NCBI GenBank assembly: GCA_013298775.1
Contig: JAAFIV010000025.1
Location: 1 to 64,000 of the forward strand
Direction: 5' to 3'
DNA: 64,000 bases
DNA from: Ignavibacteria bacterium
GTDB taxonomy: Bacteria > Bacteroidota > Ignavibacteria > Kapaibacteriales > UBA4661
Shown here: positions 5,676 to 61,470 of the stretch, piece after piece
Numbering within the stretch: the stretch's first letter is position 1
How the letters are laid out: each line of letters begins with the position of its first letter
The notes under the pieces: generated by a model
Seen by the model: only the letters and a program-made list of their open reading frames with translations
What the model was told of the DNA's origin: nothing
Databases searched by the model: none
Program-made: the position numbers and the translations under genes

Positions 5676-6014
5676 TCGTGATTGGTCTGGTCGTGATTGA
5701 GGAACGCGGATTTGAAGATTCAGAGGAAATTGAGGATAAAAAATAAAAAATGCTCAATGATTTCAGTTGGAAAGAATCCTTACCTCATTAGTGGCACAGA
5801 CATTCTTGTCTGTGAGTTTTGGCGCAAGTTTCAGGTGGAAAACACAGACAAGAATGTCTGTGCCACTATTTGTTTTTTTTACCTTTTCAACCCAATACCA
5901 TACCTGATTTCCAGCTGAAATCATTTAGTACCAAACAAAAAGTAAAAAGTCCTCAAAATCCTTTCAGTCTGGGCTTCATCCGCGTTCCTTGACGAATGAC
6001 TGACCAGTTACGAT
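5676..6014. repeat. Family C inverted-repeat element carrying a nested family A element
   Basis: The left side (5676-5720, ...GGAACGCGGATTTGAAGA) pairs with the right side (about 5950-6014, ...CATCCGCGTTCCTTGACG then GACCAGTTACGA). The same two halves occur at 18071-18248 and 45731-45885, where they are 155-178 bp apart. Here they are 339 bp apart because a family A element lies between them, so A inserted into C. Confidence 0.75.
5789..5868 (-). repeat. Family A twin-hairpin palindrome, copy 2
   Basis: 80 bp: arms 5789-5814 and 5843-5868, spacer 28 bp. The spacer matches the other copies in reverse complement, so this copy is inverted. The longer element extends to about 5755-5928, bounded by ATGATTTCAGTTGGAAA and its near reverse complement. 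Confidence 0.9.
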
Positions 6015-7270: not shown

Positions 7271-10200
7271 ATGAAATCTCGCTTTTGCGGCACTCGCACT
7301 TGCATTCATCTTTTCGCGCTTGGCTGTCTCATTTTAGAATGTGCTTTCGGTCTCAGTCTCGGAATGATACGACCAATTTCAGTGAATGCTTTTCCTCGTC
7401 GAAATGTTGCAAATACAAGTAATGATGCTGCATTGAAGCAATCAAATGAGCAAACAATCTATGTGAAAATGCGTCCGCACATTCACTCGGAAAGACTGGC
7501 ACGGAAATGGCTTCAATCCTTTCTGCACAGCGTTTCTGCGCAATCGTTCTTTGAAAATAACAGAATCATGCTTTGTAAACGGCAACATTTCTTCAATAGT
7601 GGCACAGACATTCTTGTCTGTGAGCGTTGGCGCGGACTGCTGGCAAAAACACAGACAAGAATGTCTGTGCCACTGAAGCCTGATTTTACAGGGCTTTCAG
7701 AACCTCTTTCATCTGTCAAATGTACACTTACAGAGAATATCCACACCTTTCAGCTTGGAAACGCCGTCATTGCTCGGCTTCAGCTTCCACAGAATGTTTC
7801 TACACAAAAAGTATGTGATTTGTTGGAAAAACAGTCCGAGCGTGTTGAATACGCTGAAAGCGCACAAACACTTGCTCCACGACAAATACAAACGCCAACG
7901 CACGTAACCGACCCGCTTGCTGCGCAGCAATACCATTTAGACCGAATTCAAATCCGCGAAGCCTGGACAGCCGCATGGAATCAGGCTTCTGGCTCATCTG
8001 CTCGGCAGCCCGATAGCAGCATGGTGATTGCCGTCGTGGATACAGGCGTGGATTGGGAGCATGAAGATTTAGCAGCAAATGTTTGGACAAATCCTGCCGA
8101 AAGCGGCATGGATGCAAGCGGGCGAGACAAGCGTTTCAACGGCATTGACGACGACCGCAATGGTAAAATTGACGACTGGCATGGCTGGGATTTTGTTGGC
8201 AGCATTTCCGAAGATGAGCGCGAAGCGGGCTTATTTCGTGAAGATAATGACCCCAAACCGCGCATAAATACTGCGCTTGACCCAGCAGAGCAGTTACAAC
8301 ACGGCACACACGTCGCGTCCACACTCGCCGCGCTGATGAATAACGGCAAAGGCGGCGTAGGAATTGCGCCACGATGCCGCATTCTGCCGATAAAATGCTC
8401 AACCGACGGCTCGCGTGTCGGCGGGATTTCTCGTCCCTACGAAGCGGTGTTGTATGCGGCGCAAATGGGCGCGAAAATTATTGTGTGCAGCTTCGGCGGC
8501 GGCGTATTTAGTCGCTTCGAGCAGGATGTCATCCGCACTGCCAACAGCATGGGCGCACTTGTCGTTGCCGCCGCAGGAAACGATGCCCAAGTGAGCGACA
8601 ATGCGGACTTTCCCGCTTCCTACGATAAAGTATTATGCGTTGGTGCGAGCTTGCAGAACGACATTGCCGCCTCGTATAGCAATTACGGCTTGAAAGTTCA
8701 TGTGTTTGCACCTGGCGACCGCATCACGAGCGCGATTATCGGCAACAAATACAGCAACGAATGGTCGGGAACATCAATGGCAGTGCCGATTGTAGCGGGT
8801 GTGGCAGCACTGGTGCGCCTTCAAAACCCCGCGTGGTCGCCCGAAGCGGTGATTCAGCAAATTCGCGCAAGCTCGGACAATGTTCTCACAAACCAACGAA
8901 CCACGCGACCTCTCGGCTATTTCGGCAGAATAAACGCGCTCAAAGCACTCACCACGCGCCCTCCAGGACTAACCGTCGCAGAAACAAGCATCAGTGCGGC
9001 GGGTGGCGTGATGAACGATGCCGTGCCAACGCAGGTAAGGATTCGCTGTCGCAATCTCCTCCAAGTCGCACAGAATGTACGCTTGTTACTCGTTTCGCTG
9101 GACAATCGCGCAAGTATTGTTGGTGAAATGCAAACGCTCGGAAACATTGCAAATAATGACGAAAAAACAGCGCAATTCACGATTCAACTTGAACCAAGCG
9201 CGTTTCAAGGTGCAGCGCAAACGACGCAAAACGGCACGGTTGCTCGCACAGCCGAGTTTGCACTTGTGATGTTCGCGGACAATCAAATTGGCAATGAGAA
9301 TTATTCAAATTACGAGCGCATCTCCATTCCGTATTCGCTTCGCCCGCAGAATGGCGCACAAATACTGGCTTCTACGCAAATAAACTTTGGAACAGCCGAT
9401 GTTGTAAACAGCACACTTAGTTCTTTGCCAAGTTCTTTGCCAACATTTACCAAAACAGCAAATCTCACCCTGAGAAATTTCGGCACAGAAAGCTGTACGC
9501 TTCTTTCCATGCAGCTTTCGGGCGTGAATCCGTCAGATTTTTCAGCTCAAATGCCAGCTTCTACGCTCGCTGCGGGGGCTACGGTGCAAGTTCCCGTACA
9601 ATTCCGCTCTCAACAAGCATTGGCGGGACTGCGCACGGCGCGAATCACAACAGAAGTGCAATCAGCGCAGGCAGGAACGCAAGGAAATACGAGCTTTGGC
9701 AACACGAGCTTTGGCAATATTCAAGGCGGCTACGATTTTTCGAGAGAACGCGGACAATACCGCGAAATCACCGATGGAAACTCGCTTCGCGCCACGCCAA
9801 CTGCACCATTGGACGATATTCAAACGGATGTGAATCTCGGTTTCCCGTTCACAATAAATGGCATACGTTACGAGCGCGTAACAGTGAGTTCTAACGGCTT
9901 TTGCGCCTTCGCACCCGCATCAACGCTTGTTTCGCAAAGTACGCCCGTTTTTTCGCCACTAAGCACAAGTCTCCGCGCAAATGCGTATATTGCAGCATTC
10001 GCCCGCGACCTCGTTGCTGCTGCGCCGAATGCGAGTCTTAGCACGAAAACCGAAGGCACGGCACCGAATCGTGTCTGCATTCTGCAATGGCAAAATATGA
10101 ACGCCATGCAAATCCCGAAACGCTCTGCACGCGAGACAGATACTGCTCTTGCGGTTTCAATGCAACTCCGATTCTATGAAAATTCCAACGTGATTGAATG

Positions 10201-10837
10201 CGTTTTTGGCAAATGCCGCGCAAGTAAATTTTTCGACGGCGAATGCGGTATTCGTGGCACGGAAATAAAGCCAAGTATTGCCTTGCAAGGCGCGTCAATA
10301 CACGATGTTCACAGTCGGCGCGTGTCGGAGGATATTTCGGCTTCGTGGGCAAATTCGGTAGAATCGCGCTCGCACGAGGATAAATGTGAAATAACGCCGC
10401 GTCTCGCGCCAGAAGAAGGCACGATTTTTCGCTGGACACCGCGCCTAGCAACGTCGCCACGTGTGCGCACGGCACAAGCGTTTCTCCGCCAAACCGAGCT
10501 TCGCGTAAGCGTTCCCGCGCTGCAAATGACCTCCGTTCTTGAGCAAAAAATACCGCAACGCGAGGTGAATGATGAATATAGAATTTCACCAAACCCCGCC
10601 CGCGATGAAGCAACGGTGAGCTTTGTAGCCGAATCCAGCATGACGCTGACGTGTTCGGTAAAAAACAGTCTTGGCGCGGAAGTCTGGCAAGAGCGCGTTA
10701 CGGCTCATGTAGGCGAGAATTCCTTCGTTTTGCCTGTGCGAAATTTTGCAAGCGGCGTGTATTTTGTAACGATGATAAAACCTTTGAACGCCGCATTGCA
10801 TCAAAGATTGCAGCAACGTTTAGTTGTTGTGCATTAA
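7271..10837 (+). CDS. Secreted subtilisin-like (S8) protease with T9SS sorting domain and an in-frame palindromic insertion
   Basis: 1188 residues. A signal peptide (about 1-27) is followed by a prodomain-like region to about 215. The S8 catalytic domain has Asp257 (VIAVVDTGVDW), His344 (QHGTHVAS) and Ser502 (SGTSMAVPIVAG). A DASGRD...GIDDDRNGKIDD segment after the Asp resembles Ca-binding insertions of large subtilases. Beta-rich repeats fill the middle. The last ~80 residues (RISPNPARDEATVSF ... ASGVYFVTM) are a type A T9SS sorting domain, so it should be exported by T9SS and released or surface-attached. Residues about 102-140 in the prodomain are encoded by a family A palindrome at 7575-7689 that leaves the frame open. 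Its substrate is unknown. Confidence 0.92.
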   Translation: MKSRFCGTRTCIHLFALGCLILECAFGLSLGMIRPISVNAFPRRNVANTSNDAALKQSNEQTIYVKMRPHIHSERLARKWLQSFLHSVSAQSFFENNRIMLCKRQHFFNSGTDILVCERWRGLLAKTQTRMSVPLKPDFTGLSEPLSSVKCTLTENIHTFQLGNAVIARLQLPQNVSTQKVCDLLEKQSERVEYAESAQTLAPRQIQTPTHVTDPLAAQQYHLDRIQIREAWTAAWNQASGSSARQPDSSMVIAVVDTGVDWEHEDLAANVWTNPAESGMDASGRDKRFNGIDDDRNGKIDDWHGWDFVGSISEDEREAGLFREDNDPKPRINTALDPAEQLQHGTHVASTLAALMNNGKGGVGIAPRCRILPIKCSTDGSRVGGISRPYEAVLYAAQMGAKIIVCSFGGGVFSRFEQDVIRTANSMGALVVAAAGNDAQVSDNADFPASYDKVLCVGASLQNDIAASYSNYGLKVHVFAPGDRITSAIIGNKYSNEWSGTSMAVPIVAGVAALVRLQNPAWSPEAVIQQIRASSDNVLTNQRTTRPLGYFGRINALKALTTRPPGLTVAETSISAAGGVMNDAVPTQVRIRCRNLLQVAQNVRLLLVSLDNRASIVGEMQTLGNIANNDEKTAQFTIQLEPSAFQGAAQTTQNGTVARTAEFALVMFADNQIGNENYSNYERISIPYSLRPQNGAQILASTQINFGTADVVNSTLSSLPSSLPTFTKTANLTLRNFGTESCTLLSMQLSGVNPSDFSAQMPASTLAAGATVQVPVQFRSQQALAGLRTARITTEVQSAQAGTQGNTSFGNTSFGNIQGGYDFSRERGQYREITDGNSLRATPTAPLDDIQTDVNLGFPFTINGIRYERVTVSSNGFCAFAPASTLVSQSTPVFSPLSTSLRANAYIAAFARDLVAAAPNASLSTKTEGTAPNRVCILQWQNMNAMQIPKRSARETDTALAVSMQLRFYENSNVIECVFGKCRASKFFDGECGIRGTEIKPSIALQGASIHDVHSRRVSEDISASWANSVESRSHEDKCEITPRLAPEEGTIFRWTPRLATSPRVRTAQAFLRQTELRVSVPALQMTSVLEQKIPQREVNDEYRISPNPARDEATVSFVAESSMTLTCSVKNSLGAEVWQERVTAHVGENSFVLPVRNFASGVYFVTMIKPLNAALHQRLQQRLVVVH
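7575..7689 (-). repeat. Family A element inside the S8 protease gene, copy 3
   Basis: Arms 7597-7622 and 7650-7675 with a 27-bp spacer; all other copies have 28. Homology to the intergenic copy at 12513-12628 (reverse complement) extends beyond the arms to about 7575 and 7689, including AAAATCAGGCTTCAGTGGC on one side and a GTAAACG-N-CAA..T flank on the other. It encodes SGTDILVC ... TRMSVPL in the protease frame. Confidence 0.88.
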
Positions 10838-10852
10838 CGAAAAAACTTTTGA

Positions 10853-10929
10853 GTAGAACAGACAAGAGTGTCTGTTCTACCGAAGCCAGTATTTCCTTGA
10901 GGTAGCGCAGACACTCTTGTCTGCGCCAC
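10853..10929 (+). repeat. Family B twin-hairpin element (core only)
   Basis: The first arm, 10853-10880, is a perfect 12-bp stem (GTAGAACAGACA / TGTCTGTTCTAC) with loop AGAG. The second arm, from about 10902 to 10929, is GTAGCGCAGACA / TGTCTGCGCCAC with one mismatch and loop CTCT. It sits between the S8 protease stop and the next T9SS cargo gene, and could act as a transcript 3' end. Confidence 0.8.
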
Positions 10930-12456: not shown

Positions 12457-12512
12457 TGTTTGAAATATTGTCTCCAAAAACCTGTGTACACGGCAAAATA
12501 TCTGAGAAACAA

Positions 12513-12628
12513 CGAAAATCAGGCTTCAGTGGCACAGGCATTCTTGCCTGTGTCCCTCACCTGAATCCAGCACCAATGCTCACAGACAAGAATGTCTGTG
12601 CCACTATTGCAAGATTTTTGTCGTTTAC
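12513..12628 (+). repeat. Family A element, copy 4 (covariant arm)
   Basis: Core arms 12527-12552 and 12581-12606, spacer 28 bp. The left arm reads CACAGGCATTCTTGCCTGTG: the A-to-G and T-to-C changes fall on opposite sides of the arm hairpin and keep it paired, although the two arms no longer match each other perfectly. The outer flanks match those of the copy inside the S8 gene. Confidence 0.88.
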
Positions 12629-12656
12629 TGAAGTATTAAAGCAATCGTCAAATTCA

Positions 12657-20250: not shown

Positions 20251-20372
20251 AGAACTTTCGTACAATGCTCGTTTTGCGGCACAGACAAGAGTGTCTGTGC
20301 TACCGAAGACGCATAAAACTTGAATTTAATGGTAGCGCAGACACTCTTGTCTGCGTCATTTGCGAAAGTCCT
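20251..20372 (+). repeat. Family B full-length element flanked by a 7-bp direct repeat
   Basis: 122 bp bounded by AGAACTTTCG and GCGAAAGTCCT. It contains arms CACAGACAAGAGTGTCTGTG and GCAGACACTCTTGTCTGC. GTGCTTG occurs immediately before it (20244-20250) and immediately after it (20373-20379), as a target duplication would. It lies just upstream of the histidine kinase start. Confidence 0.85.
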
Positions 20373-23103: not shown

Positions 23104-23519
23104 CATTCGCCCCCTGATAAAGTAGGGCTGTTAAGTTCTCGTGTTTGCCCTCATCCCAACCCTTCTCCCAGAAGGAGAAGGGCAAGACACAGAGCCGTTT
23201 CTGAAGCCCTCTCCCTCTGGGAGAGGGTTGGGTGAGGGCTTCACGGGAACAGAACTTAACAGCCCTGCTTTGATAAAGGGGGAACGGAGAATTTGCCTTG
23301 CCATTTGGAATGATGATTTCATGAGGTTTTGAGGCGTTTAATCCCCCGTTCCGCCTTTATCAAAGCAGGGCTGTTAAGTTCTAAAAGACAGTCTCGTAAC
23401 GGTGCGGCTTACGACAAATCCCCCGTTCCCCCTTTATCAAGGGGGCGAAGGATTGGTGCGGCTTTCACGTCATCGTATAAAAAGAACTGAACAGCCCTGC
23501 TTTATCAAGGGGGCGAATG
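23104..23519. repeat. Nested stack of palindromic elements (families G and F) between kinase and regulator genes
   Basis: The outer ends CATTCGCCCCC-TGATAAAG (23104) and CTTTATCAAGGGGGCGAATG (to 23519) are reverse complements apart from one missing base. Inside are two elements with 21-bp ends containing AGGGCTGTTAAGTTCT: 23124-23266, carrying the inner CCCTC..CCCAACCC / GGGTTGGGTGAGGG pair, and 23367-23498. Between and inside these are further CCCCTTTATCAAGGGGG palindromes (23268-23287, 23340-23366, 23418-23450). No gene is visible here. Confidence 0.8.
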
Positions 23520-25562: not shown

Positions 25563-25684
25563 AGGACTTTCGCAAAATACTTGTTTTGTAGCACAGACAA
25601 GAGTGTCTGTGCTACCGAAGACATGTACAACCTGCATCACGTGGTAGCGCAGACACTCCTGTCTGCGCCATTTACGAAAGTCCT
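25563..25684 (+). repeat. Family B full-length element
   Basis: 122 bp with ends AGGACTTTCGCAAA and TTTACGAAAGTCCT. Arms are GTAGCACAGACA / TGTCTGTGCTAC (loop AGAG) and a GCGCAGACA / TGTCTGCGC arm with loop CTCC. It fills most of the gap between the epimerase and the guanylyltransferase genes. Confidence 0.88.
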
Positions 25685-30861: not shown

Positions 30862-31003
30862 TTCACCTTACGCATACCACCCTCACCCAACCCTCTCCCA
30901 GAGGGAGAGGGCTTCAGACCTAGTTCTCATCAACCCTCGCCCTCTGGGAGAGGGTCTCGCGCAGCGAGGGGTGAGGGCAAATGTGAGGTTATGCGTAAGG
31001 TGA
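30862..31003 (+). repeat. Family F element inserted in a family A element, with 8-bp target duplication
   Basis: 142 bp with perfect 14-bp inverted ends TCACCTTACGCATA / TATGCGTAAGGTGA, enclosing CCCTCACCCAACCCTCTCCC and its reverse complement. GTTAAAAA is present on both sides (30854-30861, 31004-31011). The host sequence on either side is the family A upstream flank (CAGTATTGGGTT ... AAAAAACAACAATAGTGGC). Confidence 0.88.
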
Positions 31004-31026: not shown

Positions 31027-31106
31027 TAGTGGCACAGACATTCTTGTCTGTGTTATTCGCCTGAACCTCTCACCAACACGCACAGACAAGAATGTCTGTG
31101 CCACTA
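31027..31106 (+). repeat. Family A twin-hairpin palindrome, copy 5
   Basis: Arms 31027-31052 and 31081-31106 are perfect reverse complements; spacer 28 bp. The right flank (ATGGGTCAAGGATTCTTTCC) matches copies 1 and 2. The left flank is interrupted by the family F insertion. Confidence 0.92.
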
Positions 31107-58794: not shown

Positions 58795-58874
58795 TAGTGG
58801 CACAGACATTCCTGTCTGTGTTTCTTGTCTGAATCCTGCACCAACACGCACAGACAAGAATGTCTGTGCCACTA
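58795..58874 (+). repeat. Family A twin-hairpin palindrome, copy 6
   Basis: Arms 58795-58820 and 58849-58874, spacer 28 bp. The left arm hairpin loop is TTCC instead of TTCT, the only arm difference. It lies between the hisB start and the amidase stop. Confidence 0.9.
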
Positions 58875-61390: not shown

Positions 61391-61470
61391 CAGTGGCACA
61401 GACATTCTTGTCTGTGGTTTCCGCTTGAAACCCGCGCTAACACCCACAGACAAGAATGTCTGTGCCACTA
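61391..61470 (+). repeat. Family A twin-hairpin palindrome, copy 7
   Basis: Arms 61391-61416 and 61445-61470, spacer 28 bp; only the outermost base differs between arms. It lies 25 bp after the LptE-like stop and ahead of the glycosyltransferase. Confidence 0.9.

Follow-up and report, generated by a model that had tools for sequence, protein, structure and literature searches.

The window, a stretch of 64,000 nucleotides on contig C18 of the genome under study (G000, 5.19 Mb in 95 contigs), carries a gene for a secreted subtilisin-like (S8) protease, into whose prodomain-coding region a palindromic repeat is built in frame. Peptidase_S8 (E 1.9e-44) and Por_Secre_tail were both matched in the open reading frame (Pfam), and the catalytic Asp, His and Ser residues were invariant in an alignment of 14 orthologues. 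The intact triad and T9SS tail reported in the first-pass annotation were thereby recovered, and the gene appears intact despite the palindromic element. The features of the protease gene and the nearest related intergenic copy are as follows.

7271-10837, forward strand: gene that hosts the insert; its 1188-aa product is a secreted protease of the S8 (subtilisin-like) type and ends in a T9SS C-terminal sorting domain (ORF and domain matches)
7571-7720, forward strand: in-frame copy of the miniature transposon of about 151 bp, 150 nt long, covering residues 101-150 and decayed at the right end (profile; missing in six same-genus orthologues)
7571-7598, forward strand: terminal inverted repeat of the left end with the adjoining subterminal stretch, 24/28 matching the consensus CTTAGTACACGACAAAATTTCTTCAATA (profile)
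7599-7622, forward strand: REP arm 1, translated (S)GTDILVC (exact arm match)
7623-7649, forward strand: linker, 27 nt (28 nt in most copies; copy comparison)
7650-7673, reverse strand: REP arm 2, reverse complement of arm 1, translated QTRMSVP(L) (exact arm match)
7674-7720, forward strand: subterminal stretch of the right end (TGAAGCCTGATTTTA...) with the right inverted repeat, which is decayed (profile)
12482-12633, reverse strand: nearest full-length intergenic copy of the miniature transposon of about 151 bp, about 152 nt, in opposite orientation to the S8 copy (profile/homology)

The two 24-nt REP arms in the protease gene (GTGGCACAGACATTCTTGTCTGTG) are both exact and stand head-to-head, in opposite orientation and in frame. 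An arm consists of a GTGG head, a perfect 8-bp stem and a 4-nt loop (GTGG-CACAGACA-TTCT-TGTCTGTG), in agreement with the definition of REPs as a GT(A/G)G head directly before a perfect palindrome broken by 2-4 bases (PMC2817692). REPs are also expected in many copies, often as inverted pairs. At three or fewer mismatches, 318 + 292 arms (610) were counted genome-wide in G000 versus 0 for a reversed-pattern control, which excludes a chance origin of the arms in the S8 gene. Copy statistics were taken from 1.58 Mb (30%) of G000 and from stretches of G005 (Candidatus Kapaibacterium sp. PH2015_12D_48_15, the closest relative of G000 in the collections); 67 head-to-head GTGG (family A) pairs lie within the 1.58 Mb. 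A second REP family, with a GTAG head, coexists with the GTGG family in G000. Arms of the GTGG family pair head-to-head and those of the GTAG family mostly tail-to-tail, with a spacing usually of 28 nt in both. The following pairs in the window were located by repeat search.

233-308, no strand assigned: GTGG-type REP pair, intergenic, other outer flanks
5791-5866, no strand assigned: GTGG-type REP pair, intergenic, other outer flanks
10857-10925, no strand assigned: GTAG-type (family B) REP pair, tail-to-tail, directly past the protease gene
31029-31104, no strand assigned: GTGG-type REP pair, intergenic
58797-58872, no strand assigned: GTGG-type REP pair, intergenic
61393-61468, no strand assigned: GTGG-type REP pair, intergenic

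Further GTAG-headed tail-to-tail pairs, in the mirror layout of the GTGG family, were noted at 20280-20355 and 25592-25667 of the window. One REP pair type was observed within outer flanks of several types, among them GTGCTAAATGATTTCAGTTGG and AAGGAATGGTAAAAAA (window positions 233, 5791 and 31029, and many copies in G005); the occurrence of the same pair within different flanks suggests that several longer elements have one REP core in common. A literature search returned no match for the peptide of the S8 insert or for the arm sequence.

The longer element was described with a profile built from 67 other copies, the S8 copies being excluded. Its consensus is 151 nt long, with terminal inverted repeats of about 20 bp, the ends CTTAGTACACGACAAAAT / ATTTTGTCGTGTACTAAG and the REP pair at the centre. 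Among 46 copies with both end repeats, 9-bp target duplications were exact in 10 and carried one mismatch in 11, against 0.29 and 0.24 expected from shuffled partners, and exact duplications of 5-8, 10 or 11 bp were found in none of them. The end repeats and the family-wide 9-bp duplications identify the element as a miniature transposon built around a central REP pair; it is short, contains no transposase gene and has terminal inverted repeats, as MITEs do, and the duplication is of fixed length at the level of the family. No end pair enclosing a transposase, and hence no autonomous parent, was found in the 1.58 Mb or among the end sites listed genome-wide. A candidate for such a parent, an end pair 2.7 kb apart on contig C67, resolved into two distinct small copies. 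The intergenic comparison of G000 with G005 yielded no clean unoccupied site with a single 9-bp target, because the intergenic flanks of the two genomes are too different. Some orthologous intergenic sites hold different palindromic repeats in the two genomes (e.g. L139:7590 in G005 and C1:111577-111724 in G000), as if the same spots had been reused by unrelated palindrome families.

The S8 copy was matched by the profile at about 7557-7720 (E 5.8e-47), and its counterpart in G005 with E 2.5e-45. Homology with the intergenic copy near 12.5 kb, noted at first pass to extend beyond the arms, was seen to do so in the comparison, and of the edges then placed near 7575 and 7689 the left one lies close to that of the profile-defined element (about 7571-7720), whereas 7689 is too far in. 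Since the last 23 nt are decayed (12/23 matching the consensus), the right edge falls somewhere in about 7697-7720. No 9-bp target duplication is recognisable at the S8 copy (AGAATCATG / TGTACACTT), which is an old, decayed copy whose presumed duplication is no longer visible. Its linker measures 27 nt in place of the usual 28 nt, and when the consensus is taken in its 150-nt form one frame is fully open, the frame used in the protease. If a 9-bp duplication accompanied the insertion, 150 nt and 9 bp would add up to 159 nt, which is exactly 53 codons and would have kept the reading frame.

The history of the insert was followed in the orthologues by measuring the prodomain from its first strand (IYVK) to VEYA. 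This interval spans 129 residues in G000 and 134 in G005, compared with 71, 72, 74, 75, 78 and 78 in six other orthologues of the same genus. The excess of 51-58 residues is consistent with 53 codons and exceeds the gain of about 39 residues first proposed, while the in-frame position of the repeat in the prodomain stands. The sister species G005 (91% identical) has the same copy, and the block is missing in the six same-genus orthologues and in more distant ones of the family and order, which was the outcome foreseen for an alignment of orthologues. Arms of the REP family occur at other places in G001 (230), G006 (105) and G007 (263), but none of these three has a copy in the S8 gene. These comparisons support a true in-frame insertion of a palindromic mobile element into the protease gene. 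As both G000 and G005 have the S8 copy and the other sampled members of the genus lack it, the insertion predates the split of these two species. The prodomain around the insert is so divergent that the exact pre-insertion sequence is not readable, and a structure predicted for the prodomain and protease from 14 sequences gave a mean pLDDT of 53, too low for siting the insert.

An ancient segment of the protease that came to resemble the repeat by coincidence would also be present in both G000 and G005. Such a segment is contradicted by its lack in the six same-genus orthologues and others of the family and order, by the 48 exact nucleotides held in common with hundreds of intergenic copies and by the match to a profile from which the S8 copies had been excluded, and we regard it as extremely improbable. 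Equally little credence is given to a chimeric assembly that placed the repeat into the gene: G000 and G005 are indeed drafts of many contigs, but the repeat occupies the identical position in two separate genomes, with substitutions in linker and flanks between them, and the frame of 1188 aa is open.

The constraint on the insert was estimated from G000 and G005. The protease domain (dN 0.015, dS 0.403; dN/dS about 0.04) is under strong purifying selection and the insert (dN 0.138, dS 0.216; about 0.6, an imprecise ratio given its shortness) under almost none; for the rest of the prodomain (residues 154-205) dN was 0.117 and dS 0.613. The arms of the S8 copy differed at 0/48 positions between the two genomes, and those of two other shared pairs, both intergenic, at 1/48 and 2/48, with linkers that had changed much; over the three pairs pooled, 3/144 arm, 22/80 linker and 265/2690 far-flank positions had changed. 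Because intergenic arms are nearly as conserved, arm conservation calls for no selection on the protein and is most simply a property of the repeat rather than of the protease. The first-pass annotation had called the element domesticated. On that account the inserted peptide gained a prodomain function (folding, targeting or inhibition) and was retained by protein-level selection, for which one may cite the preserved frame, the 48/48 identity of the arms in two species and the persistence of the insert since before the split. The near-neutral rates of the insert set beside those of the protease domain, and the small changes in intergenic arms whose linkers changed much, speak against it, and we judge domestication unlikely. 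A role in the mRNA, through a long hairpin that would slow translation or protect against decay and thereby modulate the protease, appears somewhat less likely still: the folding energy of the 150 nt is -61.1 kcal/mol (z -5.98 vs shuffles), but any such inverted repeat would fold likewise, and selection specific to the protease gene was not seen. With substitution rates so far from the constraint of the enzyme, we infer that the insert is tolerated rather than used.

The explanation that we hold to be highly probable is thus an old in-frame insertion of the REP-cored transposon of about 151 bp into the prodomain, tolerated thereafter; its starting points, namely the REP identity, the insertion and the frame, are observations. 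Before the split of G000 and G005, a non-autonomous copy with inverted repeats of about 20 bp, a central REP pair and a 9-bp target duplication would have entered the part of the gene that codes for a prodomain loop. It would have done so in a stop-free frame and, the presumed duplication included, lengthened the protein by about 50 residues while leaving it intact. Subtilase prodomains are cleaved away at maturation. The extra peptide would for that reason have been cheap, and may have drifted since under weak constraint as the protease domain stayed constrained. The REP core is the type of sequence on which RAYT transposases act, and three sister species possess a RAYT with these arms on either side. 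The same protease with and without a coding insert of about 50 residues from a mobile palindrome in close relatives amounts to a natural experiment, and it shows a route by which mobile palindromes can add protein sequence with the gene unbroken.

Copies within genes are few in G000. Among about 156 copies of both families in the 1.58 Mb, four genes with long frames contain an internal copy (about 3%), namely the S8 protease and those at C1:95630-95752, C5:19996 and C11:16909, and several further copies lie upstream of the likely start codon. In G005, two proteins of outer-membrane type (L122:1466-1538 and L149:1643-1666), for which the start codon is uncertain, also have an in-frame REP copy close to the signal peptide. 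In-frame insertion had been described at first pass as rare outside Rickettsia, a view that does not hold against the literature: REPs within genes are recorded for a wide range of species, Opitutus terrae ranking highest among GTAG-type REPs (PMC3733652), and in-frame MITE fusions are termed "not unusual" (PMC10969869). The protease insertion is thus a further case of a known phenomenon, such insertions into bacterial genes being already known.

In having a head, a perfect stem, a short loop and hundreds of copies, the repeats are like REPs/REPINs with RAYTs as presented in PMC2817692, PMC3116915 and PMC3733652, and like them they are mostly in inverted pairs, mostly intergenic and, in sister species, bound a Y1 HUH transposase gene. 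They differ from known REPs/REPINs in that many pairs form the middle of a longer transposon, which has inverted repeats of its own and makes 9-bp duplications, and from known REP/RAYT systems in that G000 has no detectable RAYT and the RAYT of the sister species lies in frame inside recG. GTAG-15 of Anabaena variabilis is likewise a REP pair nested in a longer palindromic element, but of other sequence and from another phylum, and, as far as the consulted text of PMC3733652 goes, it is not reported to have a target duplication. GTAG-20 of Opitutus terrae (mostly GTGG; PMC3733652) also has a GTGG head without the TAG stop and copies in coding genes; it belongs to another species, and the likeness is one of description. 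With RPEs (PMC10969869) the insert has in common a length of about 150 bp, a palindromic structure and a tolerated in-frame place in a coding gene. RPEs are marked by a large share of copies in genes, nearly half in Rickettsia conorii (PMC10969869, citing Ogata et al.), whereas here, in another phylum, the share was about 3% of sampled copies.

The transposase bounded by the same arms is an unusual companion finding and more striking than the protease insertion. In G005, G006 and G007 a Y1 HUH transposase with REP arms of the GTGG family on both sides is embedded in the recG reading frame, between VIDEQHRFGVLQRAELK and VMSATPIPRTL, at the following loci.

G005:C139 (L188:382-3231), reverse strand: RAYT in recG
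G006:C10 (L236:1501-4257), forward strand: RAYT in recG
G007:C58 (L238): RAYT in recG, the gene being divided between two contigs

The ORFs of G005 and G006 show Y1_Tnp between DEAD, Helicase_C and RecG C-terminal domains (Pfam). The RAYT parts of the three genomes are 47-53% identical, compared with 83-92% for the RecG C-terminal parts, and despite this low identity the HUH and tyrosine motifs are retained. No such insert was found in recG of G001-G004, G009 and G018, and none of the papers searched describes a RAYT inside RecG. No RAYT was found in the G000 assembly, where two weak Y1_Tnp matches lie near no REP arm. REP arms are more numerous in G000 (796 with a relaxed pattern) than in any other member of the genus, and G001 has 230, with a RAYT found in neither assembly; the transposase may have been lost or may fall in an assembly gap. 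In a broader survey of the phylum, the best-scoring Y1_Tnp matches all occupied short frames of their own, so that embedding is not a general rule.

It is tentatively proposed, with considerable doubt, that this REP/RAYT system is able to live inside reading frames, through GTGG arms that are stop-free in any frame and a RAYT within RecG as a helicase-transposase fusion (in methylase-type genes in related genera), and that the protease insert may be a product of the same habit. If functional, a RecG-embedded REP transposase would suggest a new way in which REP transposases present as a single copy escape loss. Related Y1 transposases were also observed in frame in a DUF1156 gene (G012:C1, L273:1-2682, reverse strand) and in an Eco57I-type methylase gene (G111:C290, L269:1-1998, reverse strand); both genomes belong to other genera of the same order, and both host genes are methylase-type. 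At the RAYT site in recG of G000 (C78, L237) a palindrome of another kind (LIPTLLPEGEGQ...PSPSGRGLGEGL) is inserted in frame; it resembles the repeat at window positions 23200-23238 and 30880-30918.
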